Below, one piece after another: positions 796-25,529 of a DNA stretch of 64,000 bases. The first letter of the stretch is position 1. Each line of letters begins with the position of its first letter. The DNA lies in the NCBI RefSeq assembly GCF_001723685.1, contig NZ_MCBX01000004.1, positions 62,001-126,000 on the forward strand, in the 5' to 3' direction. This stretch comes from Candidatus Marithrix sp. Canyon 246 (lineage in GTDB: Bacteria; Pseudomonadota; Gammaproteobacteria; Beggiatoales; Beggiatoaceae). Both the position numbers and the translations under genes were made by a program. The notes under the pieces are model-generated. The model searched no databases, was not told where the DNA came from, and saw nothing but the letters and a program-made list of their open reading frames with translations.

Positions 796-815
796 GAAGC
801 GTATAGGGATAATTA

Positions 816-3889: not shown

Positions 3890-3892
3890 TTG

Positions 3893-6800
3893 TCACAATA
3901 CAATCCGAACCACCTCAACATCCTCATCCTCAATCTGCCTTTTAATATAATCACGAAACCGTGTTTCTATTTCTGCCGCTGTAATTGGCAAGCCATCCCG
4001 CTTTATAAATTGATATAGTTCGTCATAATTTATGTTTATTTGCTTTAGTTTGGATAGGCTGTTTAATAAGGCTTTTATAAAATTACGGTTTATTTGTTCT
4101 GGTAAGGTGCGGCTGATTAGGAAGTCTTCTAAATCTTCGTAAGTATGGGATTTTTCTATTTCTAGCAGTAGGATTTTTGTCCATTGTTGATATAGGTTGT
4201 TTAGTTTGTATTTTAGTTCCATTAGGCTATATTCTACTGAAATAGTTTCCTGAGCTTTATACTGGCAATGGGGGCAAATGGTTGTTGCTGTTAAATCCTT
4301 TGTTGTTAAGGCATTACAGCTTTGAAATTCTAATAGTTTTTGTTCAAATTCTATTAGTTCTTGATGTGGTAGGATGGATATTGGGCTGAGTTGTTTTAGC
4401 TTTTTTAGACGCTTGTCATTTAATAAGTCTTGTTTGATTTGTTCTGTTTCTGGATTTAAACGTGCTTGTTGGTGTAGTAGTATATAAGCTTTTATATATT
4501 GATTTTTTAAGGCATTTAGCTGTTGTTGGCTATGATAACTAAAGCCGCTGGCATTACGTTGAGTCACATCACTAATTTTCTGACATAGATAATCTCGTAG
4601 CTGTTGCATTTCTATTATCCATTCATGTTGTTCAGGTAAATTGGTAGCTGCTACATTTAAATAAGTTACTGTTGGGCTTAGTTCATTTAAGATGGTTATT
4701 AATTGCTTGATATTTTTTAATATCTTTAATCCACTCCATTGAGCTGTGATTTTACTTGCGGAATATTTTAAATTCTTAAATTTTACTGGTGTAGTATAAT
4801 TTAATAATGATTCTAAAAAGTTGTTGCTGGTTGATAATGATTGTTGATAATATGATTTTTCGGCTGAACTTAATACTGGTTTTCCCCAAAAATATAAGTC
4901 ACTATTTAAATTATGTTGAACTGTTACTATTTGATTTAACAGTTGATTTATTCTAATTTGTAACAGTTCTACTGCTGTTTGATCATATTCTGTTATTGCT
5001 ATATCTAAGCCACTGGGTAATTCTAATAATTCAAATAATGCCTTCAGCGCGAATAAATTAAAATCTCTATGCTTTTCTAGGTGTTTGAATGTTAAGAGTT
5101 CTTTAATTGGTCTAGCAGCAATATATTCAAATTGACTAGCGTCATAGCTTTGTTTTGTTAATACTAAGCTTATTTCTCCAACATATACCAGTGCCGCTAT
5201 TAAAATAATCACCAATTCTGGTTCCAAACAATAAGGAGTGACAGTAATTACTGAATATAATTCGCCTTGATTTAAAACCTTTCCCGGTGGTTTTTGATAT
5301 ACCAGTTCTAAAATAATTTCTGCGTATTTGCTGTTATAAGGTACAAGTTGCTGTTTATCATCTAATAACTTTAAGGCGGTTAAAATACCAACAGCTAGTT
5401 TACTACGAGTCTTAATATTAAGACAGCGTAAAGTTTCTTGAGTTATTGTGGCAATATTTTCATGGGAAACCAAGGTTGGAAAATAAGGATATTCAGGAGC
5501 CAACAATGAAAAATAACTATCTAAATAACTATCCGCAACAATATCTACCAAATCACGGAAATTATCTAGCGGCATCCAATTGGATAATTTTTTATTTTGT
5601 ACCTCAAAATCAGCCTTATGAGCCTGTAACCATTGCACTAATTCAGCTAAATATTGTTGTGATTTATACTCATAATCTTCAGATGAACTCAACATTAAAT
5701 CATTAGTGGCACTATATAAAGCTAATAATTTTTCAAACTTTTCATCTCTGACAGTTAATTGAAAATAAAGCTCTTTTCTGCCAAAACACAAGACAAAACC
5801 CCATTCAGCTTCAGCAAAACTACCTAAGCGCGTAACTTTATGAGAACGCCATTCTAATTCATAATTATCATCCGATACTATTTCCATCACTTGTCGTAAT
5901 GCAGTATAATAGTCGCGCTGAATTTGTGATTGCTCTAAACTTTCAGCCCGTTTTTCAATAATGGCATCAATATCAATATTCTTTTTAATATCAAGATAAT
6001 ATTGACCATTATGTTGATTATACGAAATAAATTGACGATTAACAGTGTTTATAATTTCCTGCAACACCAATTCAACTAATGACAACAAATCATCAGCTCG
6101 ATTACCGCCTAAATCCTCAATACTGCGATGATACAAACACAAACTATCCCTTAATTCTTGCGCCGTAACACCAACCGGAGTATTAATATCATGAGTTGTC
6201 AACCTATGCACCGACAAAGCATAAATAATTCGCAATGCCATATCTTGATAAATGGGGCGAGTAAAAGCTTTTTTGAGTCTATTTTCTAAAACTTGACTGG
6301 ATTCAATTACTTCACGAATTTCGGGCAAAGAGCGAAAACAAGGATTTTGTAGTAAAATATGCCAATAGCTATCATAAGTAATTAAGCCGGGATGATCAGT
6401 AGGAACTTGTTGTTTAAGTAGAGACTTGACACTATATTCGATGGTTTTGAGGATTTCGCGTTTTTCGATGACAGTGATACGTCCAAAAATATCAATATAA
6501 TCAGGATGAACCGGAAATAGATCAATAAACTCATTGATATTACCATAAAAACTAGCAAAACCACTGAGATAATCTCGAATTTTTTGCTCTTGAACAGCAG
6601 TTTTTTTCAATAACCGCTGAGAAACTACATATTTTATATCCTGACGAGTAATCAACAATTGTTCAAATCTATCCTTCACTCTACGCAAAGCATTAGCAAC
6701 AAACTCAAACCGAGGATTATCAAAAATAGCCTCCTGCACACCAGCGATAAAACGAAATCTCGAATGTTTACAAACCTCACCAACTTCGCGCAAAAAATTA

Positions 6801-7366
6801 AGATCAAAAATCAAAGCCTGATCACTACGAGAACGCAAAAATTCCAACAACTCATCAACCACCACCAACAAGCCTTGCCCCGGAAACTGCCGCTCAAACA
6901 CCAACATCATATCCGCAAAAGCGGCTTTATTATTGGTAATAGAACTAGCGGCAGGAAACTCAAAATTAAGATCAAATTGAGATAAAAACCGCTCCAACTC
7001 TGAAAACAGAATATCCCGCAAAGACATAGTAGTGGCACCAATCTCAATCCGCAAAACTCGAAACTGCCCAGCAATAGCCTTAGCTGCTTTCCTAACTTTA
7101 ATATTGGTTAATTCATTGAGCAAATCAGCATTTTCAGCAATACTAGAAATAACAGCCATTAAATGCGACTTACCAGTGCCATAATTGCCAACTATTAATA
7201 ATGCCTTGTTATCATGCACAAAAACTAACTTGACTAGGCGTAGAGCCATTTGCTTGGAAATTACATAACTTGCTACTAACTGCTTGGCTTGATTGGTATT
7301 GTTGGCGGCTTGGAGTTCTATTACTGATTCTATTGAGTTGAATTGGAATAGGTTGTTGTATTGCAT
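3893..7366 (-). CDS. Large DUF6079-type (PglY/BrxC-like) ATPase
   Basis: 1157-residue P-loop ATPase. Walker A GNYGTGKSH at residues 60-68; hydrophobic Walker B strand with VVVDELLEFL near residue 170. Long helical middle, and a small CPHC metal-binding-like motif about 115 residues from the C-terminus. This layout resembles the DUF6079 family, to which I believe the BREX ATPases PglY/BrxC are related; those act in phage restriction with a methyltransferase and PglZ. None of those partners is in the window. It is convergent with the helicase/AlbA_2 pair, ending 3 bases from it, so the three may be one system, but that is inference. ATG at 7366 has a weak purine-rich leader. The frame is intact. 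A broken copy of its 5' end lies at 10210-10393. Confidence 0.7.
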   Translation of the reverse strand: MQYNNLFQFNSIESVIELQAANNTNQAKQLVASYVISKQMALRLVKLVFVHDNKALLIVGNYGTGKSHLMAVISSIAENADLLNELTNIKVRKAAKAIAGQFRVLRIEIGATTMSLRDILFSELERFLSQFDLNFEFPAASSITNNKAAFADMMLVFERQFPGQGLLVVVDELLEFLRSRSDQALIFDLNFLREVGEVCKHSRFRFIAGVQEAIFDNPRFEFVANALRRVKDRFEQLLITRQDIKYVVSQRLLKKTAVQEQKIRDYLSGFASFYGNINEFIDLFPVHPDYIDIFGRITVIEKREILKTIEYSVKSLLKQQVPTDHPGLITYDSYWHILLQNPCFRSLPEIREVIESSQVLENRLKKAFTRPIYQDMALRIIYALSVHRLTTHDINTPVGVTAQELRDSLCLYHRSIEDLGGNRADDLLSLVELVLQEIINTVNRQFISYNQHNGQYYLDIKKNIDIDAIIEKRAESLEQSQIQRDYYTALRQVMEIVSDDNYELEWRSHKVTRLGSFAEAEWGFVLCFGRKELYFQLTVRDEKFEKLLALYSATNDLMLSSSEDYEYKSQQYLAELVQWLQAHKADFEVQNKKLSNWMPLDNFRDLVDIVADSYLDSYFSLLAPEYPYFPTLVSHENIATITQETLRCLNIKTRSKLAVGILTALKLLDDKQQLVPYNSKYAEIILELVYQKPPGKVLNQGELYSVITVTPYCLEPELVIILIAALVYVGEISLVLTKQSYDASQFEYIAARPIKELLTFKHLEKHRDFNLFALKALFELLELPSGLDIAITEYDQTAVELLQIRINQLLNQIVTVQHNLNSDLYFWGKPVLSSAEKSYYQQSLSTSNNFLESLLNYTTPVKFKNLKYSASKITAQWSGLKILKNIKQLITILNELSPTVTYLNVAATNLPEQHEWIIEMQQLRDYLCQKISDVTQRNASGFSYHSQQQLNALKNQYIKAYILLHQQARLNPETEQIKQDLLNDKRLKKLKQLSPISILPHQELIEFEQKLLEFQSCNALTTKDLTATTICPHCQYKAQETISVEYSLMELKYKLNNLYQQWTKILLLEIEKSHTYEDLEDFLISRTLPEQINRNFIKALLNSLSKLKQININYDELYQFIKRDGLPITAAEIETRFRDYIKRQIEDEDVEVVRIVL

Positions 7367-7401
7367 TTCTTGGTTAATTATTTAACTTGCTATTGTTTAC
7401 A

Positions 7402-7491
7402 AAAAATCCGTTTACTCCGTAAATTCGTTGTACTATTGATTTGACATAATTGTTATTAAGTACAACGGATTTACGGAATAAACGGATTTTT
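7402..7491. repeat. Long hairpin / MITE-like inverted repeat
   Basis: Two 33-base arms (7402-7434 and 7459-7491) are reverse complements with only two mismatches, around a 24-base loop. The outer ends are AAAAATCCG / CGGATTTTT and the inner ends carry CGTTGTACT / AGTACAACG. It lies between the GDYXXLXY gene's 3' end and the DUF6079 start. A related inverted repeat with the same GTACAACG core is at 62147-62247. It could act as a bidirectional terminator because of the flanking A/T runs, or be a non-autonomous mobile element. Confidence 0.85.
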
Positions 7492-7570
7492 ATTTAAATT
7501 AAATCCAAGAATGAATCCATCAATAGCTGATTCTATATACAGGATACATAGATAATATAATAGTTATAGC

Positions 7571-8068
7571 CTAAATATTGTTACATATATCCTGCAATTT
7601 CTTAAACTCAGCATCGCGCAGCCCGACTAAAACACTTTCCCCTGAGCCAACTGCTAAGCGTATTTCTCCATAACGAGCATTCTCGTAGCATTTAGCTTGT
7701 CCTTCTTGAAAGAAAAATGATTCCGCACCTAACCGAATATCATTCCCCCGTTTGCGGAACTGTAGTAGAAATTCATCTGCTACTAAGACTGTGCTTTCTT
7801 CATAAATCCTTTTGAAATTAGCTACTTGTTTATCGTCTATACTTATCACTAAATAGCCATCTCGCTCTGCCGCTTTTAATGCTGGTTGGCTGACTATATC
7901 ATAACGCAATTCCATATAATCCCCTTGCATCAATGAACGAGGATCACGGGGTGCTAATTTCAATAATACAGTTGTGCCTTTAGCAAGCAGTTGTTCCTTC
8001 TCATAAATTTTAAAATTTATCACTGCTAACACGATTATTGCAATAATCAATATTAATGGATGACGCAT
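7571..8068 (-). CDS. GDYXXLXY-domain membrane-anchored protein
   Basis: 165 residues: one N-terminal membrane helix (LILIIAIIVLAVINFKIY) and a periplasmic domain containing the signature GDYMELRY around residues 48-55. The GDYXXLXY family is of unknown biochemical function and is usually encoded next to DUF4401 and DUF2157 membrane proteins, exactly as here. Last gene of a three-gene minus-strand operon; one base separates it from the DUF4401 gene. Family assignment is firm; the role (perhaps envelope-related) is not known. Confidence 0.85.
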   Translation of the reverse strand: MRHPLILIIAIIVLAVINFKIYEKEQLLAKGTTVLLKLAPRDPRSLMQGDYMELRYDIVSQPALKAAERDGYLVISIDDKQVANFKRIYEESTVLVADEFLLQFRKRGNDIRLGAESFFFQEGQAKCYENARYGEIRLAVGSGESVLVGLRDAEFKKLQDICNNI

Positions 8069-8069
8069 A

Positions 8070-9152
8070 TTATTGTCCTCCTTCTGATAGTGGAAAAACC
8101 CATTTCAATATAAAACGTAGCCCTAGCAAAACTAAGCCTGCGCTCATTAAGCTAATAGATTTCATTAGTAATGTTATGTCTAAGTAATAGTAGTAAGATA
8201 TCAAAAATATGTTTAGAAAAAATATTGCTAATCCAATTAAAACGCGATTGCCTCGTTGAAATCCCAATATAAGCACGATAATAGAAGCTATTATGCCGGG
8301 ACTTTGATAGAGCAATAATCCAACTAATAGGGTGCCAGCAAAGATAATATAAGTTTTCATAGAGAATGTGATATTGTTGCTGCGCAGAATATAATATTCT
8401 AAAGCTAGTAGTAATACTGTTAAACTAAAGCTTGAATACCACCAAGTCACTGGTGAAATCAACTGACTATTTGGTAAAATGGATGATGGGACTAATATAA
8501 TCTGCAAGGCTATTATAAAAGCGTAAGCCAAAGGTTGATGCAAGCTCGCCATAACTTTATCTGTTAAGTGGCTCGCCTCTGCTATCCAGTACCAAATTGC
8601 ACCTATTGCTATCAAGAAAATCAAGATATGAATTCCTAGGTAAAGTTTTAAATCATAGATTAGTACTAAGACTGCCGCTGTGGCTATTAAGACAGAGAGA
8701 AAACGAAGAATATGATCTGAATAAATTTTAATCAGTAGCATTTCCATAAATAATATGGCTAAACATACTGTTACCACATTTTTGCTCTCACCAGCAATAC
8801 CAACAATCAACATAACTTGTCCGGTTAAATTTAAAGCTAAAGCTAATTGATCTAAGAATAAAATGTGACCTTTTGAATTATGTAAGATAACGGTGCCAAT
8901 TAGCAATATTAATCCGACGATTATTGCCGATATTGGTTCTTCAACCAAATGGCTGAGAGCAATAAAAGCTAGAAATGGTATAACAGATAGCCAAGCACTG
9001 ACTGCTATCAAGGCACTAACAAACCAAGGTGTTGATGCTTGTTCCAAGGATACATTCAAAGTTTTGGCTATTTCTGCTGGAGCTTCGTTTGGTAATTGCT
9101 TTTGTGCTATTAAATCGTCAATCACGGCGGCTAGTGTTAGTTGTTTACTCAT
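8070..9152 (-). CDS. DUF4401 multi-spanning membrane protein
   Basis: About 360 residues. A short cytoplasmic N-terminus (MSKQLTLAAVIDDLIAQ) with a helical pre-domain is followed by about ten hydrophobic helices, as in the DUF4401 family. I chose the ATG at 9152 because a good Shine-Dalgarno (AAGGAGG) precedes it and it overlaps the previous stop (TAATG); an in-frame ATG further upstream (9197) would bury the start in the DUF2157 gene. Middle gene of the DUF2157-DUF4401-GDYXXLXY operon. Function unknown. Confidence 0.82.
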   Translation of the reverse strand: MSKQLTLAAVIDDLIAQKQLPNEAPAEIAKTLNVSLEQASTPWFVSALIAVSAWLSVIPFLAFIALSHLVEEPISAIIVGLILLIGTVILHNSKGHILFLDQLALALNLTGQVMLIVGIAGESKNVVTVCLAILFMEMLLIKIYSDHILRFLSVLIATAAVLVLIYDLKLYLGIHILIFLIAIGAIWYWIAEASHLTDKVMASLHQPLAYAFIIALQIILVPSSILPNSQLISPVTWWYSSFSLTVLLLALEYYILRSNNITFSMKTYIIFAGTLLVGLLLYQSPGIIASIIVLILGFQRGNRVLIGLAIFFLNIFLISYYYYLDITLLMKSISLMSAGLVLLGLRFILKWVFPLSEGGQ

Positions 9153-10159
9153 TATGATGCCTCCTTCTGCCAAGTTTGAGCAACATGTTGCAGCCAATTG
9201 GTTGCTAAACTAGCTTGTCCAATAATTAGTAGAGCTAAAATTAGCATATTTAATACATTATCAAATGGCAACAATTGATATGCTAAGCTTGTAAGGACTA
9301 TCAATAATCCTAATAGGCAAACTGCTAATAATAATAAATCCTGCCGCTGGTAACGGTAATACCATAAAGCTAAAGCGGTAGTTGCTACATATAAGCCGAC
9401 TACCAACATTAATAATAAATCGTTTTGCCAGTACTTACTTACAATTGCATATAAGGTGGGTATTATCAGGACAATTAAAACAATGCTGAAGATAATTACG
9501 CCTAACCAGTGTCCACGCAACCAAGATATGTTGCGTAATTGAATATTTTCCCAAACTAGCATTGCGGTTCCGTTGACTATAAATAGCAATAAAAACAATT
9601 GACTACATATTCCGTCGCAAGACTGATTAATTACTTGTTTATAGTAGAGAATGAGACTTAGATTGAGTAGCACTAGCAATAATAACCATAGAGGCGCAAA
9701 GCGACCAAGCAATACCCAAGGGATAATCAAAATAGCCCAAGTCATAAATAAGCTAAAAGCATCTGCACCAGTTTGATAGGCTTGACCATAAACAGCTAAT
9801 AATGCGCCCAATAATACGGTTGTTGCTAGTAAAGCAACTTTAGCTTCGAGCAGTTCAATTCCTCGCCAACTAGCAAAAATAGCTAGTATCAATATACTCG
9901 TTTGAAGTAATCCGAATTTGCTAAAATAACTCAAATCTGCCCAATTATAGGCGAAGAAAAAAATTATCCCTACTACTACTAAAATAGTACCTAGCAGTAA
10001 TAAAAGATTGTCAATAATTTTTCGCCATGCTTTAGCATCGGGAATAATTTTAATTTTACGTAAACTATATTCAAGTGCATAGCTGGTTAATTGATTTGCT
10101 CGCGCTAAGCTGTAAAGATGATTCGAGCTAATCGGAATTTCTAGTGGATTTTTTTGCAT
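9152..10159 (-). CDS. DUF2157 membrane protein
   Basis: 335 residues. An N-terminal soluble stretch (about 45 residues) is followed by paired transmembrane helices; the segment LGTILVVVGIIFFFAYNWADLS is typical of DUF2157. First gene of the three-gene operon with DUF4401 and GDYXXLXY proteins; its TAA overlaps the next ATG by one base. These families co-occur widely but have no demonstrated reaction. The operon is bracketed by the intact DUF6079 gene on one side and a dead fragment of that gene on the other. Confidence 0.82.
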   Translation of the reverse strand: MQKNPLEIPISSNHLYSLARANQLTSYALEYSLRKIKIIPDAKAWRKIIDNLLLLLGTILVVVGIIFFFAYNWADLSYFSKFGLLQTSILILAIFASWRGIELLEAKVALLATTVLLGALLAVYGQAYQTGADAFSLFMTWAILIIPWVLLGRFAPLWLLLLVLLNLSLILYYKQVINQSCDGICSQLFLLLFIVNGTAMLVWENIQLRNISWLRGHWLGVIIFSIVLIVLIIPTLYAIVSKYWQNDLLLMLVVGLYVATTALALWYYRYQRQDLLLLAVCLLGLLIVLTSLAYQLLPFDNVLNMLILALLIIGQASLATNWLQHVAQTWQKEAS

Positions 10160-10209
10160 AAGATTGTTTGCTTTTGGATTCTAATTATCAAAGATATCTA
10201 TTATACCTC

Positions 10210-10393
10210 AAAAATTGCCCAGCAATAGTTTTAGTTGCCTTTTTACATCATTCACAAAAACTAACTTTACTAGGCGTATAATTTGCATGAAAATAACATA
10301 ACTTGCTACTAATTGCTTGACTTGATTGGCGGCTTGTAACTGAATGACTGATTCTATGGAATTGAATTGGAATAAGTTCTTGTATTGTATTTT
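10210..10393 (-). pseudogene. Decayed 5' fragment of a DUF6079 ATPase gene
   Basis: The plus-strand text from about 10213 (TTGCCCAGCAATAG) through AACATAACTTGCTACTAA to TTGAATTGGAATAAG closely follows 7063-7366, the start region of the DUF6079 ATPase gene. About 120 bases are missing from the middle, which removes the Walker A segment. The equivalent of the start codon (CAT at 7364-7366) is TAT at 10388-10390. It is therefore a non-functional paralogous remnant, left by duplication or by loss of a second copy. Confidence 0.8.
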
Positions 10394-10582
10394 TCAGTTT
10401 TTGATATATTCAATACAATTTATATTGAGAAACTATAGAAGGTACTTAAAAATGATTATTAAAGTGATGTATTTATTTGATTCAAAAATTTGTAAATCAA
10501 AATAACGGGGCTAAGCGACGTTAAATTGCCTATTATCACCGATCCTACAAGGCTCCCTAATAAGGCAAATCAGTAAGTAAGA
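10394..10582. other. Intergenic stretch with nothing recognised
   Basis: Remainder of a 423-base gene-free gap. AT-rich up to about 10500, then a less AT-rich patch (AACGGGGCTAAGCGACG around 10502-10520) with no open frame, RNA gene or clear hairpin that I can identify. Confidence 0.5.
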
Positions 10583-10873
10583 TTACCCCTTAATCATCAG
10601 ATATATTGAATAGATAGGAATTACAGACAGACTAAATAAAAGGAATAAAAGTGTCCATGTGCCGGGTAGCTCAGAATTATTAAATGCTTCTAAAACTATG
10701 TATAAGAATGCAAAAATATTTACAACAAAAATGAACAAGCCTTTTCCACGACGACTTTTTCTCTTTTTGATTGTTTCTTGCTTAGGAGCTTCAGTTTGAT
10801 TTGTTAAATAGTGTCGTAACCATATGCCAGCCAGAGTGAAAAAACCAGCTATAAGGGCTGCCAAGATTTCCAT
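10583..10873 (-). CDS. Small three-helix membrane protein
   Basis: 96 residues, not assigned to a named family. The N-terminal helix (LAALIAGFFTLAGIWLRHYL) is followed by a very basic loop (IKKRKSRRGKG), then two further hydrophobic helices. A purine-rich AAAGGTG lies just upstream of the ATG at 10873. Flanked by intergenic DNA on both sides, so it looks monocistronic. It is probably real because of the coherent topology and leader, but no function can be inferred. Confidence 0.55.
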   Translation of the reverse strand: MEILAALIAGFFTLAGIWLRHYLTNQTEAPKQETIKKRKSRRGKGLFIFVVNIFAFLYIVLEAFNNSELPGTWTLLFLLFSLSVIPIYSIYLMIKG

Positions 10874-11045
10874 GTTTCACCTTTTTTAGATAAATAAATT
10901 TTATGTGTACTATTCTTAATAGTAACATAGTTGATTTATTTATTCAATAGACTAAAGAAAGTGAACAAAACATCCTCATAACTTTTCTGCAAGATCGTTG
11001 GCTACGCGAAACCAATGTCATCAATCATCGGCTTGCCTGAATATA

Positions 11046-11771
11046 CTAAAACGAAAATATTTTCTCTGCTGTGAGAAAATCATCCTTTGTATCAATTTCT
11101 ATCCATTTAAACCCTGAAATATCTAAAGCATAAAAAGCTAGGTTTTTTTCAATTAATCTTTCATAGGCAGCTTCATAATATTCTTGATGATTTTGTTCAT
11201 CTTGCATCATTATTTGTAATTCTGTAAACAATAACTTTGCTGTTTCACTATCAATTTTTTCAATTCCTATTGATTCACCAATCGCATCTTTAGGGTTCAC
11301 GCTTTTACTGGCTTTAAGTACCCGGTTTTTATCATCAATAATTACCTTAATTTCTTCAGCATCAAGATTAATATCTTTGTCAAAGCATAAACAATTTGCA
11401 TATTCGGATTCAATCAGCTTTTTAAGTATTTGTTTATCAAATACCACATCCGCATCAAACTTTACAAAACCTGAACTACCGATCAAATCCTTGGTTAACA
11501 TTAAAGAAAAACCAGTATTTGTCTCAGCGTATTTATCATTTATAACAAAATGGGCATTTAAATCTGGAAATTTGCTTTTAACATGATCTTTTATCTGCTC
11601 TTCTAAATATCCAAGAACAAAAATAATTTCATTGATTCCACAATCCTGAATATGAGATATCATCATCTCCAGAATAGTCTTGCCTCCAACTTTTAACAGA
11701 CTTTTTGGACAATTATTTGTTAATGGTCTAATTCTGGAACCAACTCCAGCGGCTAATATTATTGCTTTCAT
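11046..11771 (-). CDS. NTP transferase, probable phosphonate/choline-type cytidylyltransferase (PntC/LicC-like)
   Basis: 241-residue sugar-phosphate-type nucleotidyltransferase. The N-terminal loop MKAIILAAGVGSRIRPLT and the PKSLLKVGGKTILE lysine motif bind the nucleotide; FVKFDADVVF gives the metal-binding aspartates. The short length and gene context favour a LicC/PntC-like enzyme that activates a small head group with CTP (2-aminoethylphosphonate or phosphocholine-like) over a nucleotide-sugar synthase. One base separates it from the CDP-alcohol phosphatidyltransferase upstream, and a transaminase starts that operon. The nucleotidyltransferase fold is certain; the substrate is inferred from context. 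Confidence 0.75.
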   Translation of the reverse strand: MKAIILAAGVGSRIRPLTNNCPKSLLKVGGKTILEMMISHIQDCGINEIIFVLGYLEEQIKDHVKSKFPDLNAHFVINDKYAETNTGFSLMLTKDLIGSSGFVKFDADVVFDKQILKKLIESEYANCLCFDKDINLDAEEIKVIIDDKNRVLKASKSVNPKDAIGESIGIEKIDSETAKLLFTELQIMMQDEQNHQEYYEAAYERLIEKNLAFYALDISGFKWIEIDTKDDFLTAEKIFSF

Positions 11772-11772
11772 T

Positions 11773-12570
11773 TTATTTTCTCATTGGATCAAGAAGTTTT
11801 TCTTTTGCCTTGTGAGTCTGATATCCTCGTTCAAATAATCTCCAACAAGCTATTAAAACCTGACTAACAGCTAAAATCCACAACACCAAGATCATTTGAT
11901 TAAATATTGCTCCTATGCTGGTAAAAATCACAAATTCCGCTTCATCAACCCAAAATATACTCCGATTTTTGAGCCAAAATAATTTGATTTTGCCTAAAAA
12001 GCTGGTTGAAAGTTTTTCGTATTCTCTTTGCTTGATTATATATAATTCTTGTTTTCTTTCTTTTGCTTTAACTAAATATTGAGAATCTTGATTAAATTGA
12101 CTAAAAATTGTCTCAAGTTTAATGTAATATCTTAAATTAAAGAAAAAACAAGCGGTAAAACCAAGGAAGATATAGATAACATTATTAGTTGTAATATAAG
12201 CACTATAGGCAAGACAAATTGTAATTATATATATTTTTAAGACATCAACCACTTTATCAAGATAATTACCAATATCAGAAGATAATTTTTTAGTTCGTGC
12301 TAACTGCCCATCAAGGCAATCTCCTATATAGGCTATAGGCAAAAGAATTGCTGTATAAAATAGGTGATATGGAACATCAATAAAGATAAATAAACAACCC
12401 AATACATACAAGAAAAAAGAAAACAAAGTAACCCTATTTGGTGTAATCCACTCAAATCTTGAAACGAATGGCAAAATCATATTTGCTATTTTGGGCATAA
12501 ATAAATCTGCCCAATTACTAAAGTAAGGTGGTTCAATAATTATTTTTGCTGTAGGTTTTGTATCACTCAT
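11773..12570 (-). CDS. CDP-alcohol phosphatidyltransferase family membrane enzyme
   Basis: About 265 residues with several membrane helices. It holds the full CDP-alcohol phosphatidyltransferase motif DG-x2-AR-x8-G-x3-D-x3-D (DGQLARTKK followed by GNYLDKVVD). This class moves a phospho-alcohol from a CDP carrier to another alcohol, giving phospholipids or phosphonolipids. I prefer the ATG at 12570, which has GGAAG upstream; an in-frame ATG at 12597 overlaps the transaminase gene more. Between a cytidylyltransferase and an AEP-type transaminase it most likely attaches a CMP-activated phosphonate head group, but this is context-based. Confidence 0.82.
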   Translation of the reverse strand: MSDTKPTAKIIIEPPYFSNWADLFMPKIANMILPFVSRFEWITPNRVTLFSFFLYVLGCLFIFIDVPYHLFYTAILLPIAYIGDCLDGQLARTKKLSSDIGNYLDKVVDVLKIYIITICLAYSAYITTNNVIYIFLGFTACFFFNLRYYIKLETIFSQFNQDSQYLVKAKERKQELYIIKQREYEKLSTSFLGKIKLFWLKNRSIFWVDEAEFVIFTSIGAIFNQMILVLWILAVSQVLIACWRLFERGYQTHKAKEKLLDPMRK

Positions 12571-12584
12571 TATATGACTTCCAT

Positions 12585-13748
12585 TTAGTTTTGGCAATCC
12601 ATTAACTGGCTATTTAAATTCTCTTTTTTGATTGAAACAATTGTTTTTGTTTCCGTATGATTGAAACTCTGCAAAACTTCTCGCTGGGTATCTAAAAAAA
12701 ACTGGATGTCATCAAAAGATAACTCACCAATATTACCTACCTGAAACACTCGGTTTTTAAAACAACCTTTTCCTTCATAGATAATAATAGATTTATTACG
12801 TAACTTTTGACGGAAAATATTCACATTAATGTGAGAAGGTATATAAACAGTGGTTAAGACTGAACACATTTTTGTCTGATCAATCACAAATTTAAGACCT
12901 AAATTCAACATACCTTGTCTTAAAATATTTGCTTTACGTCTAATGTTAGCATAGCGATTAGAAACCCCTTCATTTAGGATATTGATCAATGCTTGTTCCA
13001 GAGCAAAAAACAGGTGAATCGCAGGTGTATTTGGTGTCTGTGAAAGAGTTTTGATAAACTCATAAAATTTGTATAAATTCAGATAAGTGGTTTTAATTGG
13101 AAGATTTTTTAATTTTTCAAATTCTTCTGTTTTTCCGACCACGAAAGATAATCCTGAATAAGAACCAATAGCTTTTGAACTCGAACTTGAACAAAATGCG
13201 ATGTTACATTTTTCCATATCAATAACTTCTGCGCCAGCACTACTCACACAGTCCACAATAAACATAGCACCATTTGCTTTTGCTAATGCGCCAATTTTTT
13301 CCAAAGGATTCAACATTCCCGAACTGGTCTCATGATGAACCATAGCCACGATGTCAATTTGATGTTTTTGAAGATAAGCTTCTATTTTTTCCAAATCCAA
13401 GCTTTCTGCCCAAGCAAATTCCAGCAGAAAGGTATTTTTATTATGAATCTTAGAAATGTTGAATAGCCGCTCGCCAAACTCACCATTGGATAAAATCAGA
13501 ATATTTTTATTCCCAACCACTGAAGAAAGTATCGATTCATTCGCTGCCGTCCCCGAACCGGTAATGACTACAGCCCGATAATAGGCAATGGTCTTGATTT
13601 CAAATAGTTTCAGTAGTTTATTTTCAATACTTTGTAATAAACAGTCAAAATCTGTCTCTCTATGACAAATATCCTCTTTACAAATGGCCATTTGCACGTT
13701 TTTTGCTACATTTACTGGTCCCGGTGTAAATAGTAAATATTTTTCCAT
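12585..13748 (-). CDS. PLP transaminase, 2-aminoethylphosphonate:pyruvate type
   Basis: 387-residue class V aminotransferase. The N-terminus EKYLLFTPGPVNVAKNVQMA, the HRETDF motif, TGSGTAANE and VDCVSSAGAE, and the PLP-lysine region CSSSSSKAIGSYSG match 2-aminoethylphosphonate-pyruvate aminotransferases (PhnW and biosynthetic AEPT). In a biosynthetic setting it aminates phosphonoacetaldehyde to 2-aminoethylphosphonate. The ATG at 13748 is preceded by AGGAG. First gene of the operon with a cytidylyltransferase and a CDP-alcohol phosphatidyltransferase. PEP mutase and phosphonopyruvate decarboxylase, needed to form the C-P bond, are not in the window. Confidence 0.78.
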   Translation of the reverse strand: MEKYLLFTPGPVNVAKNVQMAICKEDICHRETDFDCLLQSIENKLLKLFEIKTIAYYRAVVITGSGTAANESILSSVVGNKNILILSNGEFGERLFNISKIHNKNTFLLEFAWAESLDLEKIEAYLQKHQIDIVAMVHHETSSGMLNPLEKIGALAKANGAMFIVDCVSSAGAEVIDMEKCNIAFCSSSSSKAIGSYSGLSFVVGKTEEFEKLKNLPIKTTYLNLYKFYEFIKTLSQTPNTPAIHLFFALEQALINILNEGVSNRYANIRRKANILRQGMLNLGLKFVIDQTKMCSVLTTVYIPSHINVNIFRQKLRNKSIIIYEGKGCFKNRVFQVGNIGELSFDDIQFFLDTQREVLQSFNHTETKTIVSIKKENLNSQLMDCQN

Positions 13749-13882
13749 ATATAAACTCCTACTAAAAAAAATTAACCTTCCTATGAGTTGGGGTGATATT
13801 TTCAATATAACAAGGTGTAAAAATATAGTTGAATTGCTAAGCTGTAGCGTTTTATGCTATATTTGATTGTTTTGAGAATTTA

Positions 13883-17041
<3,159 letters not shown>

Positions 17042-17046
<5 letters not shown>

Positions 17047-17070
17047 CAGGTTGTAAAAACCTGTCAGGTT
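17042..17070. terminator. CTGACAGG-type palindromic repeat, convergent terminator
   Basis: Arms CTGACAGGTT and AACCTGTCAG flank a short A-rich loop, between the small gene after pyrG and the 3' end of sanA. It is the same element as at 24780-24812 and 40631-40661. Its position between converging genes suggests a bidirectional terminator. Confidence 0.75.
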
Positions 17071-17075
17071 TATGA

Positions 17076-17738
17076 TTAATGATCAGGTATTTCAACCTTT
17101 TCACCTAAAAATTTAGGTTTGGTTTTTAAAATATATAAATCTAAAACCGCTTTAAAACGAGCGAAATATTCACGCAATACTACTTTTTTACCAGCACTAA
17201 ATGAAAGGTCTCTAGCATTAAAACCAATCGCTTTAATTCCATAATAATCACTTATAAATATTGCTCTTTTATTATGAAAAGCTTGAGATACAATAATTAT
17301 ATTATCTTGTGAGAAAATTTCCTTACAACGCACAACGGAATCCAAGGTACGAAAACCGGCATAATCTAAGCTTATTGCCTCTTTAGGAATCCCTTGTGCC
17401 ATCAAAGATTTTTGCATATCTACAGGTTCGTTGTGGTAAATAGTACGATTATCACCACTAGCTATGATATGTTTAATTTTGCCAGCTTTATACAGTTTCA
17501 CTACTGCATCAATACGATACTTAAAATAACGATTAATACGACGATAGCGTAAACGTTTACTTGTACCTAAAACTAAAGCCACACGTTTAGCAGGAATAGC
17601 ATTAACATCAGAATAAAGGCGATCTTTAGTTTGATATTCTATCCATAAGTTACTAGCAAGAATAATCATTGTTAATAGTATTAATAATAATAATAGCCAT
17701 TTGATTACTGAAAATATTTTTTTAATCAGGAGGTTCAT
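17076..17738 (-). CDS. sanA: SanA/YdcF-family DUF218 envelope protein
   Basis: 220 residues. One N-terminal membrane anchor (WLLLLLILLTMIILASNLW) is followed by a DUF218 domain: VALVLGTSKRLRYRRINRYF, IDAVVKLYKAGKIKHIIASG, and a SQAFHNKRAIFIS motif. Length and N-terminal layout match SanA (vancomycin high-temperature exclusion protein) rather than the longer ElyC. SanA influences envelope barrier function; its reaction is unknown. Ends next to the palindromic terminator at 17042-17070. Confidence 0.82.
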   Translation of the reverse strand: MNLLIKKIFSVIKWLLLLLILLTMIILASNLWIEYQTKDRLYSDVNAIPAKRVALVLGTSKRLRYRRINRYFKYRIDAVVKLYKAGKIKHIIASGDNRTIYHNEPVDMQKSLMAQGIPKEAISLDYAGFRTLDSVVRCKEIFSQDNIIIVSQAFHNKRAIFISDYYGIKAIGFNARDLSFSAGKKVVLREYFARFKAVLDLYILKTKPKFLGEKVEIPDH

Positions 17739-17762
17739 AACTAGAATTATAACGAAAAAAAA

Positions 17763-19898
17763 TTATTTTTCTAGCATTTCTTGTGCTAAAAAACGTAAAC
17801 CATTAATATCAAAGCCTTTTGCTAAATCGGTAATTTTCTTAGCCATTGGAGTCAGTTCTGAATCTAGTTGTTTAGCAAAATTTATAATCCCTTTTATATT
17901 ACCAGATTTAGCTAAAGCGGTTAAAGTTGTGGCTTGTTCAGTTGACAACATTACTAGTGGCTGTTCTTCTGTAACTTCTATATTATTCTCTTGCAAGGTT
18001 TCATAAATCCATTCTACATTTAAAAATCGCTTTAGAACATCTAATAATTCCGATTCACGAATTGGCTTATCTAAAAATTCATTACAACCAACATCTAAAC
18101 TTAATTGATGATGTTCTTCAAATACACTAGCAGAAGCTGCAATAATGGGAATGTCTTTCAATGCAGTTATCTTTCTAATTTCACGAGTTGCATCAAAACC
18201 ATCCATTTCTGGCATTACTAAATCCATTAAGATTAAATCAGGTTGATGTTCAGCAGCTAATTTAACTCCCTCAATACCATCAACGGCAGTAATAATCTTG
18301 AAACTTAATGGTTCTAACAAATTTTGAAGTATCGCACGATTTTCCCAATTATCATCAACTACTAAAATTTGTAATGGAGTTTCAGAATTTTTATATCCAA
18401 TTACCTGTGGTATATTAATTGACTTTGGTTCTTCAACCATAGTTGATATAATTGGTAACTCCAATTCTACCCAAAAAGTAGAACCTTGCCCTAATATACT
18501 ATCAACATGTAATTTTCCACCCATCCTATCTATCAATTTTTTAGTAATAGATAAACCTAAACCAGTACCTTGCTCTTTAGAGTTTTTATCACCAGCCTGT
18601 TGAAATGGTAAAAAAATATTTTTTAATTCTTCTTTAGCGATTCCAATCCCTGAATCTATAATTTTAAATATAAATTTATTGTCATAAAATTCAACGCTAA
18701 AACTAACTTGCCCTTGTTTAGTAAATTTAATTGCATTACCTAAAAGGTTAATAACAATTTGTCGTAAACGTTTTTCATCCCCACTAACACCAATAGGAAG
18801 ATTGTCAGAGAATTTGTAAATAAATTCAATATCCTTTTGCTGTGCCCGCATTTTGAATAATTCAGCTAAACTATTTAAAAAAGGTTTTAAATGAAATTCT
18901 GCGGGGAAAATTTCCAATTTACCTGCCTCAATTTTAGATAAATCTAAAATATCACTAATCAGTGTTAATAAATAATCCCCGCTGCGTTGAATAATGGATA
19001 TACCGGTTTTTTGCTGTTCATTTAATGTTCTATCTTTAATTAAAATTTGTGCATAACCTAAAATACCATTTAAAGGGGTACGAAGTTCATGACTCATATT
19101 AGCCAAAAAAGCACTCTTTGCCTGATTAGCAGCCATAGCTTGATCACGCGCTTTTGCTAACTCTGTTTCATGATTTTTAATTTGAGCTAACATATCATTA
19201 AAGCTATCTACTAATTTACCTAACTCATCATTATTAATTTTTTTCGCAGATAAAGAATAATCTTTAAATTTTGATACTGCTTTCATAGTTGCTAACAAAC
19301 TATCAATTGGAGCAGTAAGCACTGTTTGAAATTTAAAAGCTAAGATTAGAGCTAATAATAATGATAAAATTATAATGATAGTAATAATACTTCCAGCCCA
19401 AAATAGATGTTGATAAAAAGCTTCTAAATCTGATCTAATATATACAGTACCTACAAATTTTTGTTTGTTTGTATAAATTTTTCTAAAAATATCAACATAG
19501 TCTTGACTAAAATTAAAAATATAGTTATTTTTTATTGTCTGACGTTCTGTCAGAATTGGAACATTAGGTAATGACGTTTTATCGACATCTTGTTTAAAGT
19601 AAGTGACGAATAACTGATGTTTTTTATTGAATATTTTTGCAAACACAATATGCTTATTTGCTTTTAATGCTTGCATATTTTCTTCTACCGCAAAATTATC
19701 CTTAAACAGTAATCCCGCAGTGCTATTGATCCCTACTAATTCAGCAAGTACAAATACATCAGTCACCATATTACGACGAAAAGTCAATGTATCATTAGTA
19801 ACAAAAGCTACTGAGGCTAAGAATAACACTATTCCACTAGTTAATAGAATTATTACTCTAAGTTTATTTTTAAGTGAACTATTATCAAAAATCCGCAT
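17763..19898 (-). CDS. Membrane hybrid histidine kinase with receiver domain
   Basis: 711 residues. TM1 about 13-33, a periplasmic CHASE8-like sensor segment (FRRNMVTDVFVLAELVGINS), TM2 about 166-188, HAMP, then HisKA with NMSHELRTPLNGILGY, HATPase (TGLGLSITKKLIDRMGG) and a receiver domain (VVDDNWENRAILQ, phospho-acceptor in LILMDLVMPEMDG). The roughly 80-residue tail is helical and may be a degenerate phosphotransfer module. Encoded back to back with yfiR and two TonB receptors. This grouping recurs in proteobacteria and suggests the kinase senses the state of the receptor system, though the ligand is unknown. Confidence 0.88.
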   Translation of the reverse strand: MRIFDNSSLKNKLRVIILLTSGIVLFLASVAFVTNDTLTFRRNMVTDVFVLAELVGINSTAGLLFKDNFAVEENMQALKANKHIVFAKIFNKKHQLFVTYFKQDVDKTSLPNVPILTERQTIKNNYIFNFSQDYVDIFRKIYTNKQKFVGTVYIRSDLEAFYQHLFWAGSIITIIIILSLLLALILAFKFQTVLTAPIDSLLATMKAVSKFKDYSLSAKKINNDELGKLVDSFNDMLAQIKNHETELAKARDQAMAANQAKSAFLANMSHELRTPLNGILGYAQILIKDRTLNEQQKTGISIIQRSGDYLLTLISDILDLSKIEAGKLEIFPAEFHLKPFLNSLAELFKMRAQQKDIEFIYKFSDNLPIGVSGDEKRLRQIVINLLGNAIKFTKQGQVSFSVEFYDNKFIFKIIDSGIGIAKEELKNIFLPFQQAGDKNSKEQGTGLGLSITKKLIDRMGGKLHVDSILGQGSTFWVELELPIISTMVEEPKSINIPQVIGYKNSETPLQILVVDDNWENRAILQNLLEPLSFKIITAVDGIEGVKLAAEHQPDLILMDLVMPEMDGFDATREIRKITALKDIPIIAASASVFEEHHQLSLDVGCNEFLDKPIRESELLDVLKRFLNVEWIYETLQENNIEVTEEQPLVMLSTEQATTLTALAKSGNIKGIINFAKQLDSELTPMAKKITDLAKGFDINGLRFLAQEMLEK

Positions 19899-20043
19899 TT
19901 GTATTTATTTATTATTAATCCCAATGAAATATTAATTCTTCAGTTATCGTACCAATTATAATTTTAAAATGGTATTCAATGTGCTAGTTAGATAATATGG
20001 CAAATGAAACATAACCTCACATTAACGAACTAAATATATAGAC

Positions 20044-20619
20044 ATGATCTACCATTTCATTTCATTTAAAGCTTTTCTACGATTAGCTATAACTGTCATT
20101 TTATTAACATTTCTAGTAAATACTAGTTACGCAAGACCAAATATTGCTTATGAATATCAACTTAAAGCAGTGTTTTTATATAACTTTGTGTATTTTGTTA
20201 GATGGCCACCTATTGCTTTTAGCAAAAAATATGCTAACTTTAATATTTGCGTTTTAGGCAAAGATCCTTTTGAGAAGGAACTGGATATGGCTGTAGAAAA
20301 TGAAACAGTTGACAGACGTATTGTAAAAATTATACGTTTAAAAAATATTACCCATGCTAGTAGCTGTCAAATTTTATTTGTTAGCAAATCAGAACGAAAC
20401 AATTTAAGGAAAATCTATGCTTATTTACAAAGATATCCAATTTTAACTGTAAGTGATATAAAAAATTTTGCTATAAAGGGCGGAATGGTTGAATTTTACA
20501 ATGTAGGTAGGCGAGTGCGTTTTTATATTGCACCTAATAATGCCAAAGCGGTTGGATTAAAAATTAGTGCTAATTTATTATATATTGCGAAACTTGTAGG
20601 TTATGAAAAAAATTACTAG
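20044..20619 (+). CDS. yfiR: YfiR-family periplasmic protein (DUF4154)
   Basis: 191 residues. The signal peptide ends around NTSYARP; the mature start EYQLKAVFLYNFVYFVRWP is the YfiR/DUF4154 hallmark, followed by FNICVLGKDPF, SCQILFVSKSE and the C-terminal block GGMVEFYNVGRRVRFYI. In Pseudomonas YfiR restrains a diguanylate cyclase from the periplasm. The YfiR proteins encoded with TonB receptors and hybrid kinases, as here, are a separate and less understood group. Its end overlaps the first receptor by 17 bases, so the two are co-translated. Confidence 0.85.
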   Translation: MIYHFISFKAFLRLAITVILLTFLVNTSYARPNIAYEYQLKAVFLYNFVYFVRWPPIAFSKKYANFNICVLGKDPFEKELDMAVENETVDRRIVKIIRLKNITHASSCQILFVSKSERNNLRKIYAYLQRYPILTVSDIKNFAIKGGMVEFYNVGRRVRFYIAPNNAKAVGLKISANLLYIAKLVGYEKNY

Positions 20620-22534
20620 TTTATTATTATTGCTTGTCATGTCTTGTTATGCAAGTGATGAAAATCGTATGACTATTCATGATTTAAAGAAATTGTCTTT
20701 AACTGAATTAATGGAAGTGGAAATTTTTAATCCTAGCGGCAGTTTGGCAGCGCGAAAGGTACAAAAGTTAAGCGAAACACCAGCAGCTTTATTTGTTTTG
20801 ACTCAAGAAGATATTCGTCGTGCTGGCATTACTAGTATTCCAGAAGCATTAAGAATGGTGCCGGGCTTACAAGTGGCAAGAATGGATTCTAGTCAATGGG
20901 CTATTAGTGCCAGAGGTTTAAATGAGCAATTTGCTAGTAAATTACTGGTTATGATAGATGGACGTACAGTTTATAGCCCTTTGCGTTCTCAAGTTAATTG
21001 GGATGTTCAAGGAACTTTAATGGAAGATATTGATCGTATTGAAGTTATTAGAGGTCCGGGGGCTTCTTTATGGGGCGCAAATGCTGTTAATGGAGTTATC
21101 AATATTATCACTAAATCAGCTAAAGATACACAAGGCACTTTAATTACTAGTACTTTTGCTAAAGGTGAAGAGAAAAATATTCTAGGAATACGACATGGCG
21201 GTAAATTAGGTGAAGATGGTCATTATCGTGTCTATGGTAAATTTTATGAGCATGATAGTGTTGTTAATGATAATTGGCAAATGAAACGTGCTGGTTTTGA
21301 CATCGATTGGGATTCATTTAGTTTGCAGGGTGGGATTTATGATGGATTTATGAAATTAAATTCTGCTAGTTTTACAAATCCAAATGAACCAATAAATGCT
21401 ACAACTACAGTCAGTGGTTTACATTTATTAAGTCGTTGGCAACACGGCAACATGATTTTACAATCCTATTTTAATAGGATGAAACGTAATGGAACTTATT
21501 GGGATTCAACTCATAATATCTATGATATAGATTTTCAACATAGTTCACAACTGAGTGATAAGCATGAATTTATCTGGGGTTTGGGCTTTCGTTATACTGA
21601 TAGTTTAATTGATGGTTCACAGCTTATAACTTATATTCCTAATCATAGAAAAGATAACTTATTTAGTGCTTTTGTTCAAAGTGAATTTAGTCTGACAGAA
21701 GATTTACGCTTGATATTAGGTTCAAAATTTGAACATAATGATTATACTGGTTTTGAAGTTCAACCAACAATACGTATGTTGTGGAATATCAATGAGAAAC
21801 ATAGTATGTGGGCTGCTGTATCACGGGCTGTGCGAACTCCAGCTCGTGTTGATGAGGATTTACAAATTAACGTAATTATACCTAATAGCCCACAGATATT
21901 AATTAGAGGTAATCCTGAAGTTAATTCTGAAGAATTAATAGCTTATGAACTAGGTTATCGTTTTAATCCCACACCTAATTTGTTAGTTGATGCTAGTATC
22001 TTTTATAATGATTATGATCAACTTCGCTCGACAGAAACTAGCTTTCAGCCGTTTCCAGTACCAATGATTTTGAATAAACTTGACAATCAAATGTTTGGTT
22101 CTACTTACGGCTTAGAATTAGCTAGTCATTGGCAAGTAACAGAAACTTGGAAATTAATTGGTAGTTATAGCTATTTATATACTGATTTAGATGTCAGAGC
22201 TAATAGTAACTATACTGGTTTTAAATTATTAGAACATAATTCACCAACAAATCAAGCTGGTTTACGTTCATTATGGAATATGACAGATAATTTAGAATTA
22301 GATGCTGCTTTATATTATGTTGATGAGGTTGAATCTCAAAAGTTACCACAATACACTCGTTTTGATTTACGTTTAGGATGGCAGGCTAGCAAAAATCTAG
22401 CTATAAGTTTAGGCGGGCGTAATTTATTGGATAGTCAGCATAGTGAATTCGGTGGTTTTGCAAATAGTAGCAATTTACTTTATACCAATGAAATACCACG
22501 ATCATTTTATTTACAATTGCAATATAGGCATTAA
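20603..22534 (+). CDS. TonB-dependent outer-membrane receptor (intact copy)
   Basis: 643 residues. The signal peptide ends near SCYASDE; the plug domain runs from about residue 45 (ETPAALFVLTQEDIRRAGI ... RIEVIRGPGASLWGANAVNG), followed by a 22-strand-type barrel with aromatic ends and a C-terminal YLQLQYRH. Imports an unknown ligand using TonB energy. It is a tandem paralogue of the next gene and has short in-frame gaps relative to it. Overlaps yfiR and lies opposite the hybrid kinase. Confidence 0.87.
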   Translation: MKKITSLLLLLVMSCYASDENRMTIHDLKKLSLTELMEVEIFNPSGSLAARKVQKLSETPAALFVLTQEDIRRAGITSIPEALRMVPGLQVARMDSSQWAISARGLNEQFASKLLVMIDGRTVYSPLRSQVNWDVQGTLMEDIDRIEVIRGPGASLWGANAVNGVINIITKSAKDTQGTLITSTFAKGEEKNILGIRHGGKLGEDGHYRVYGKFYEHDSVVNDNWQMKRAGFDIDWDSFSLQGGIYDGFMKLNSASFTNPNEPINATTTVSGLHLLSRWQHGNMILQSYFNRMKRNGTYWDSTHNIYDIDFQHSSQLSDKHEFIWGLGFRYTDSLIDGSQLITYIPNHRKDNLFSAFVQSEFSLTEDLRLILGSKFEHNDYTGFEVQPTIRMLWNINEKHSMWAAVSRAVRTPARVDEDLQINVIIPNSPQILIRGNPEVNSEELIAYELGYRFNPTPNLLVDASIFYNDYDQLRSTETSFQPFPVPMILNKLDNQMFGSTYGLELASHWQVTETWKLIGSYSYLYTDLDVRANSNYTGFKLLEHNSPTNQAGLRSLWNMTDNLELDAALYYVDEVESQKLPQYTRFDLRLGWQASKNLAISLGGRNLLDSQHSEFGGFANSSNLLYTNEIPRSFYLQLQYRH

Positions 22535-22546
22535 ATACAGAGCATT

Positions 22547-24541: not shown

Positions 24542-24556
24542 AATTCCAGACTAAAA

Positions 24557-24760: not shown

Positions 24761-24779
24761 TATACTTCTTACTGATTTT

Positions 24780-24812: not shown

Positions 24813-24821
24813 AGATATTAT

Positions 24822-25454: not shown

Positions 25455-25529
25455 ATTATTAAGTTGAGTTTTTTGTAAACGTTAATTATATAATATCTAA
25501 TTCTATTATATTCAACATTATTTTTAACT

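Follow-up and report, generated by a model that had tools for sequence, protein, structure and literature searches.

Three adjacent genes of Candidatus Marithrix sp. Canyon 246, contained in a 64,000-nucleotide stretch of contig NZ_MCBX01000004.1 that we call the window, form a recurrent cassette that we propose to be a Kennedy-like module for a lipid head group. They encode a class-V pyridoxal phosphate (PLP) aminotransferase (AT), a cytidine diphosphate (CDP)-alcohol phosphotransferase (CDP-AP) and a cytidylyltransferase related to LicC and PntC (NTP). An earlier note on this DNA had read them as the second half of a phosphonolipid pathway, with 2-aminoethylphosphonate (AEP) as head group. 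We estimate at roughly one half the probability that the head group is instead a non-AEP amine phosphate drawn from a core metabolite. The cassette is more than an annotation detail, and our claim differs from the first reading because a search of the host genome did not reveal the first half of the phosphonate route, and the same holds for most other carriers.

The earlier note described the three genes as a tight operon, and their open reading frames (ORFs), coordinates, strand and Pfam families were all borne out (Table 1). The genes lie head to tail on the minus strand, tightly packed: the NTP start (11771) is one base past the CDP-AP stop (11773). The most likely AT start, ATG 13748, is preceded by AGGAG at 13760-13756, and the gene ends at 12585; a longer reading gives a 406-aa ORF from TTG 13805. 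For CDP-AP the most likely start is ATG 12570. A single scan of genome contigs with six peptide patterns from the window AT (loci, genomes and contigs are cited by L, G and C numbers) yielded 43 loci in 42 genomes, L040 and L060 being in one strain. All three genes are present in 38 of these loci, and the order AT, CDP-AP, NTP on one strand is kept in 36 (without interruption in 28, and with one additional gene among the three in 8). Because the genes recur in order in 36 of 43 loci, the operon is real and more than a chance grouping. The order AT, NTP, CDP-AP occurs in L033 and L059; in L024, L049, L051 and L054 the cassette is truncated by the end of the contig, and no NTP was found at the L047 locus. 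Damaged copies also occur, with frameshifts in the AT of L059 and the NTP of L019 and L034, and a cut NTP in L044. Identity to the window over the aligned pieces is 59-84% for AT and 52-92% for NTP. Beyond the triad, simple ORF calling and clustering revealed no gene cluster common to more than 6 of the 43 loci.

The identity of the aminotransferase is central to the choice between readings. Against TIGR03301, the model for AEP transaminases (PhnW/AepZ), AT scores 297.9 bits, under the curated cut-off of 360.8, and its scores against the remaining AEP-transaminase models are lower still. The best solved chain is 6pd1 (PntC-AepT, E 1e-48), and AEP transaminases are also among the nearest solved relatives. 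The PLP lysine, K192 (K211 in the 406-aa ORF), is conserved in cassette and AEP-transaminase-type enzymes alike. We compared the cassette ATs with 13 AEP-transaminase-type enzymes, 11 of which adjoin pepM, ppd or phnX: 33 columns, the PLP lysine included, are at least 95% conserved in both groups, and 10 columns are near-fixed but different. The sharpest of these is an Arg-to-Gln exchange. In this enzyme class, that Arg, part of the FRI/FRV motif and Arg340 in PhnW, holds the substrate carboxylate or phosphonate. In AT the position is occupied by Q336 (Q355 in the 406-aa ORF). Gln stands there in 43/43 aligned cassette ATs with a residue at the site, and in 44/44 when the copy on the Sulfitobacter SK012 plasmid is counted, while all 38 comparison enzymes have Arg (14/14 of AEP-transaminase type, 24/24 other class V); the neighbours of all of the 14 but L106 were inspected, and L086 and L102 have no identified phosphonate gene alongside. 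No passage on an active-site Arg was found in PMC10590968 or PMC8154272.

In a FastTree tree of 81 sequences (without the L051 and L059 rows), the 43 cassette ATs form one clade with support 0.83 and a stem of 0.86 substitutions per site, placed beside the AEP-transaminase-type enzymes, whose own support as a single clade is only 0.506. Judged by its sequence, AT is not a standard AEP transaminase, since its score is below the curated cut-off and the conserved Arg is replaced by Gln. The label "AEP transaminase" given in the earlier note thus holds at the level of the family only.

The assignment of NTP as a PntC-like cytidylyltransferase proved sound. Its nearest solved chains are LicC, the CTP:phosphocholine cytidylyltransferase (1jyk, 85.8 bits, 3.4e-23), and PntC (6pd1, 72.2 bits, 5.1e-19), with sugar enzymes at 46.4 bits or less. 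Its motif GVGSR...PK fits the GXG(T/S)R...PK of LicC/PntC cytidylyltransferases described in a passage of PMC6697681. From the same passages, R15, K25 and K153 of PntC are required for activity, and Glu196 and Glu104 lie near the AEP amine, the LicC equivalents being Asp192 and Asp105. The cassette residues R13, K23, K156 and E200 correspond to R15, K25, K153 and E196. In an alignment of 39 rows, R13 is kept in 37/37, K23 in 38/38 and K156 in 38/38 of the rows with a residue there, and D106, D108 and E200 are likewise kept in each such row. NTP therefore mixes two patterns: Asp106 is LicC-like and Glu200 PntC-like. On sequence, this Asp/Glu pair appears to fit a small primary amine. LicC shares the Asp at 106 but has Asp at position 200 where the cassette has Glu, and no choline gene was recognised beside the cassette. 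The earlier note had named as adverse to its proposal a genome without pepM combined with an NTP clustering with phosphocholine or sugar enzymes. No pepM was found (see below); LicC and PntC together rank ahead of the sugar enzymes, and the NTP tree, calculated without four short or broken rows (L019, L024, L034, L044), does not resolve the point (support for monophyly of cassette NTPs, 0.348).

The third gene behaves differently. The signature of CDP-alcohol phosphatidyltransferases is D-x2-DG-x2-AR-x8-G-x3-D-x3-D, and CDP-AP reads DCLDGQLAR-x8-G-x3-D-x3-D; its nearest solved chain is AF2299 (4o6m, E 1.2e-12). Across cassettes, however, this slot is filled by at least four divergent types. 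Type A is found in the window and 4 loci (76.6-83.6% identity), and 33 other loci have a CDP-AP that falls in the same cluster as type A yet is 25.3-34.5% identical to the window copy. A PssA-like enzyme (type C; 77.1 bits to PssA, below cut-off) takes the place in L025, L026 and L059, L040 and L048 hold both kinds by clustering, and a fourth type occurs in L033. AT and NTP are thus a fixed core and CDP-AP is freely swapped, which would be the pattern of a core that produces a single activated head group and a transferase that picks its destination.

Does the host possess the first half of a phosphonate pathway? The earlier note held that the genes forming the C-P bond must be elsewhere unless the head group differs, and proposed a genome search for pepM and ppd. 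We ran this search on the host genome (3.24 Mb, 44 contigs, 98.06% complete, 3.8% contamination): at E 0.001, for pepM there were 0 matches to PF13714, a model matched by 11/14 control genomes, and 0 to TIGR02320, and for ppd there were 0 to TIGR03297, which 13/14 control genomes match, none over cut-off. PEP (phosphoenolpyruvate) mutase scores over cut-off in 4/42 genomes of the host family, our own included in the 42, indicating that the model finds pepM where it is present. A recognisable pepM was also not found in 39/42 carrier assemblies (TIGR02320, cut-off 319.55), several of which measure 1.1-1.7 Mb. The claim that the C-P bond-forming genes lie elsewhere is thus not supported. Two carriers, the genomes of L033 and L047, exceed the cut-off, and a contig-edge fragment of 230.9 bits in the L022 genome was counted as a probable pepM. 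Some TIGR02320 match at E 0.001 is found in 22/42 carriers; among the remaining 39, 19 have matches of at most 132.4 bits and 20 have none, and 6/14 controls also match below cut-off. TIGR03297 gave a similar picture in the 43 genomes searched: it is over cut-off in the L033 and L047 genomes and found in pieces in the L022 genome, and 32/43 genomes have some match, below cut-off apart from those just named. Several of these matches come as half-length pairs (52-134 bits) and are probably two-subunit sulfopyruvate decarboxylase-like enzymes. In the L033 genome one of the pepM genes (L095) is adjoined by a separate AEP transaminase and a PntC-like NTP, indicating that the cassette there is an addition.

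We also considered the cassette as a replacement for phosphatidylethanolamine synthesis, and do not favour it: Psd (PF02666) is present in the host at 195.2 bits and in 36/43 genomes, host included, so that ordinary phosphatidylethanolamine is made otherwise there.

From the gene order, conservation and spread of the cassette, the missing pepM and ppd, the Arg-to-Gln exchange and the kept catalytic residues, we infer a substrate, a reaction direction and a lipid acceptor. In a first step, AT would aminate the carbonyl of a small phosphorylated metabolite common to most bacteria; the precursor should be a common one because the cassette sits in many backgrounds without pepM. Candidates are glycolaldehyde phosphate, dihydroxyacetone phosphate (DHAP) and glyceraldehyde 3-phosphate, which would give phosphoethanolamine, serinol phosphate and aminoglycerol phosphate, respectively. 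NTP would then join the amine phosphate to CMP from CTP, a step strongly predicted at the level of the family. Finally, CDP-AP, again by its family, would transfer this phospho-amine to a lipid alcohol, for example diacylglycerol, producing a zwitterionic aminolipid; it would choose the acceptor, and AT and NTP would make the activated head group. The families of the three enzymes appear to support the CMP-conjugate-to-lipid logic of the earlier note, and the possibility it raised of a different head group also gains support, a non-phosphonate amino-alcohol phosphate being favoured over AEP. In summary for the phosphonolipid route, the three activity classes, the operon and the CMP logic stand, while no pepM or ppd was found and AT is not a standard AEP transaminase.

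Chemistry of this kind has precedents. In Campylobacter jejuni, according to passages of PMC11800397, serinol phosphate arises from DHAP by transamination through Cj1437, and ethanolamine phosphate from phosphoserine by decarboxylation through Cj1436; a passage of PMC9283133 reports slow transamination of DHAP by human transaminases. A more specific version of our proposal, which we put forward tentatively and rate somewhat below even odds, is an undescribed lipid head group: AT, lacking the anion-binding Arg, would aminate triose phosphate, glycolaldehyde phosphate or another core aldehyde, and serinol phosphate, aminoglycerol phosphate or a similar amine phosphate would be CMP-activated and put on diacylglycerol, perhaps then to be acylated by ATP-grasp or ATP-grasp-like proteins in some lineages (L025, L026, L038, L041).

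Several points weigh against a non-AEP head group from core metabolism. No residue in the cassette enzymes names the substrate. K327 of AT (K346 in the 406-aa ORF; motif YEGKG) is Lys also in both phnX-linked enzymes, beside their Arg, and Gln in the pepM-linked ones; judging from the alignment, it may take over anion binding and partially compensate for the lost Arg, so that AT may still carry out AEP chemistry. The Asp/Glu pair of NTP does not tell which amine is bound, because the D106/E200 pair is also that of the Cupriavidus NTP and of the NTP in the Mycetohabitans AEP cluster. Three carriers (L033, L047, L022) hold pepM or a fragment of it, and some further pepM genes may be missed, as carrier completeness is not given and many carriers are metagenome-assembled genomes (MAGs). 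Seven of the 43 genomes lack a Psd match. Finally, the mutual similarity of the 43 loci is partly selected by the AT-pattern search, and all of them contain AT by construction.

The alternative that survives best, though we regard it as unlikely, is that the head group is AEP after all. The cassette would then complete a phosphonolipid route that starts from phosphonate taken up or scavenged, or from phosphonoacetaldehyde that arises without PEP mutase and phosphonopyruvate decarboxylase. The structural relatives of AT, PntC-AepT and the AEP transaminases, point this way, as does the resemblance of NTP to PntC, including the E200 that is equivalent to Glu196 near the AEP amine; several carriers, judging by their names, belong to marine groups, where AEP is available. 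However, imported AEP needs no transaminase, yet AT accompanies both other genes in 38/43 loci, and the AEP-transaminase Arg is gone in every cassette AT. As to phosphonate uptake, PF12974 has one match in the host just over cut-off (30.1 bits against 27) and one below it (23.2), but 12/14 controls match too, so that these matches are no real evidence either way.

Less probable again is that the PLP enzyme is a decarboxylase or lyase, converting for instance an amino-acid phosphate to an amino-alcohol phosphate, as in the reaction of Cj1436 cited above. Loss of the Arg, whose role in this class is to hold the substrate carboxylate, would be consistent with an amino acid bound the other way round or otherwise reoriented, and analogous clusters pair LicC-like NTPs with other PLP enzymes, of class I/II. 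The five top families and the five top solved chains of AT, however, all carry transaminase names, and the alanine-dehydrogenase-like genes beside L031 and L042 fit an alanine-dependent transaminase.

A further reading, which concerns the third step only and can be combined with the others, and to which we give an equally low standing, is that the acceptor is no membrane lipid but either a glycan or, as when di-myo-inositol phosphate is made, a soluble alcohol. CDP-AP types A and B do score, below cut-off, to archaetidylinositol-phosphate synthase and to inositol-phosphate cytidylyltransferase/phosphotransferase, and a Prevotella NTP relative adjoins LicD; but type C is related to phospholipid enzymes, and CDP-AP enzymes act mostly on lipid alcohols. 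Since the choice of acceptor does not depend on the other questions, the probabilities we assign to the readings total more than 1. That a classic PepM pathway is hidden, with its pepM and ppd in the unsequenced 2% of the host genome, is highly improbable: the assembly is in 44 contigs and four family genomes do have pepM, but the other carriers mostly lack a recognisable pepM as well, ppd is missing too, and in the L033 genome one pepM has an AEP transaminase and NTP of its own.

It is instructive to compare the cassette with known systems; we found no description of it in the open-access literature searched. The closest in logic is the Mycetohabitans endofungorum cluster of PepM, Ppd, AEP transaminase, PntC and CDP-AP (as annotated), which demonstrates that a phosphonolipid-type cluster such as the earlier note envisaged exists elsewhere. 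It has the same three activities and the same chemical logic, but the cassette consists of three stand-alone genes, its host has no recognised pepM or ppd, and its AT is 30% identical and has Gln for Arg. Treponema denticola PntC-AepT (6pd1/6pd2; passages of PMC6697681) likewise combines a LicC-like cytidylyltransferase with a class-V transaminase; there the two are fused, with Glu104 and an Arg in FRI, whereas the cassette has separate genes, Asp106 and Gln. The C. jejuni pair Cj1437/Cj1436 also makes amino-alcohol phosphates from core metabolites for surface decoration, but its products join a capsule sugar as amides, and the passages of PMC11800397 on serinol phosphate describe no CMP activation of it; the likeness to the cassette is one of function. 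Modules in Rahnella, Bradyrhizobium and Prevotella again combine a PLP enzyme and a LicC-like NTP with CDP-AP or LicD; unlike AT, their PLP enzyme is of class I/II, and the Bradyrhizobium module has pepM. The latter (L136, 2753-6737, on a plasmid of Bradyrhizobium sp. 187) comprises genes for a class-I/II aminotransferase, a cytidylyltransferase, CDP-AP and PEP mutase; the annotation of the stretch shown lists no decarboxylase, and the module perhaps serves a phosphonoalanine-type lipid. In Prevotella oral taxon 299 (L131, 4952-7550), a class-I/II aminotransferase, an NTP (36% identical to the window NTP) and LicD stand in a row; inspection by eye of the 8 ORFs listed in their surroundings revealed no PEP mutase, and this analogous module is perhaps aimed at a glycan. 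In the cluster at locus L091 (genome G028, contig C142), a CDP-AP of about 25% identity stands with a Ppd-like protein and a weak PepM-like match.

The carriers, by their titles, are Gamma- and Alphaproteobacteria, Magnetococcales, Nitrospinaceae, Chlamydiae (L020, L023, L051) and Aerophobetes (L019); many are MAGs, whose binning can err, but the contig with L051 at its end is 96 kb long, and titles without a MAG label include Shewanella benthica (KT99, DSM 8812), Aliivibrio sp. 1S175 and Paenihalocynthiibacter styelae. The complete plasmid of Sulfitobacter sp. SK012 bears all three genes; its AT is 64.4% identical to that of the window, and the other 39 among the best 40 of 71 plasmid records are at most 34.3% identical. 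S. benthica KT99 (L040, L060) has two cassettes in one strain, one of them with two different CDP-AP genes. In a sample of 369 genomes of the class, 5 other genomes match AT at E 1e-60 with enzymes 32-35% identical, and no second cassette-type AT was found there. The same-genus genome G026 likewise has no cassette-type AT (best 27% identity) and no CDP-AP match. The cassette is thus a discrete module, rare and patchy, and we infer from this distribution that it is mobile and spreads horizontally.

We rejected two artefactual or foreign origins. Contamination or misbinning is contradicted by the contig itself, which continues from the cassette into pyrG and on to 31735: positions 15274-31735 mostly align with contig C8 of G026 at 86-93% (gap at 28519-30669), placing the cassette on this organism's contig. 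Nothing matching window positions 1-15273 was found in G026 C8:1-39999, the region to which the DNA comparison of 11000-15274 was confined. A phage or virus origin was rejected because a viral contig scan with AT gave no relative and identity stayed below 60% in each of the 17 phage records that hold an NTP relative.

If our proposal is true, reading AT as an AEP transaminase, as its TIGR03301 similarity invites, mispredicts phosphonate metabolism in the carriers, and reading NTP as a phosphocholine cytidylyltransferase, the family name it bears on the SK012 plasmid, mispredicts choline metabolism. A small mobile cassette could then change membrane head groups across phyla. Named and apparently cultured carriers (Sulfitobacter sp. 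SK012, S. benthica, Aliivibrio sp. 1S175) are those in which the head group could be identified directly.

Table 1. Features of the cassette and its surroundings in the window.
Feature	Position	Strand	Details
AT, class-V PLP aminotransferase	12585-13748	-	387 aa, ATG 13748; PF00266 (Aminotran_5), 82.9 bits, over cut-off
CDP-AP, CDP-alcohol phosphotransferase	11773-12570	-	265 aa, ATG 12570; PF01066 (CDP-OH_P_transf), 54.7 bits, cut-off 22
NTP, LicC/PntC-like cytidylyltransferase	11046-11771	-	241 aa; PF00483 (NTP_transferase), 52.2 bits, over cut-off
PIF1-like helicase, divergent neighbour of AT	13883-15289	+	PF05970, 100.4 bits
Intergenic stretch from AT to PIF1, presumed cassette promoter	13749-13882	-	basis: position
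CAG codon of the clade-defining Gln (FQVGNIGE) in AT	12741-12743	-	site of the Arg of FRIGNIGE/FRI..MG

The PIF1 helicase that the earlier note placed on the promoter side of the operon is indeed there (Table 1). Its gene has no tblastn match (E 1e-5) in any of the 43 related loci, and it is probably not part of the cassette. Two kinds of regulation were considered and rejected: a riboswitch or other RNA element, as nothing in window 9000-16000 reached the Rfam gathering score, and control by phosphate starvation, as PhoB-box-like scores 5' of AT in 43 sequences (AT starts placed by motif) were no better than those of shuffles. G+C content is uninformative: it is 31.4% in the cassette and 33.9% in the window as a whole, and the cassette ranks 39th among 205 windows.

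Some loci carry additional genes. In L029, L032 and L035, CDP-AP and NTP are separated by a gene for a protein of 186 aa in which a Walker-A-like motif was seen by eye; an ATP-grasp protein stands alongside L025 and L026 and a sub-threshold ATP-grasp-like one alongside L038 and L041; and an alanine-dehydrogenase-like protein flanks L031 and L042. The labels P-loop-like (L029) and ATP-grasp-like (L038) come from sub-threshold Pfam matches and motifs read by eye, and the predicted structures of these two proteins have mean predicted local distance difference test scores of 50.7 and 33.1. These accessory genes fit a module handling a primary amine, and are too few to prove anything.

Elsewhere in the window, positions 7402-7491 form a palindrome with 33-nt arms, 94% complementary, and a 24-nt loop; window 1-11000 has 94 matches in G026, the majority of them on this palindrome, in keeping with a dispersed repeat resembling a miniature inverted-repeat transposable element (MITE) or a repetitive extragenic palindrome (REP). 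For window 7.5-11 kb, a 45-base piece is the only one listed elsewhere in G026, among the 40 of 193 first-look candidates that were scored. Positions 3893-7366 encode a 1157-aa protein with a P-loop seen by eye, whose counterpart in G026 is separated from pyrG by about 180 kb and adjoined by partial second matches; at the DNA level, the counterpart of 3893-7380 is about 180 kb away on C8. A short repeat at 17038-17073 and 24779-24820 also occurs at two places on G026 C8. Finally, positions 22545-24541 align with G026 C8:21649-23627, as does the end of the 15274-22534 alignment, an apparent 2-kb duplication.

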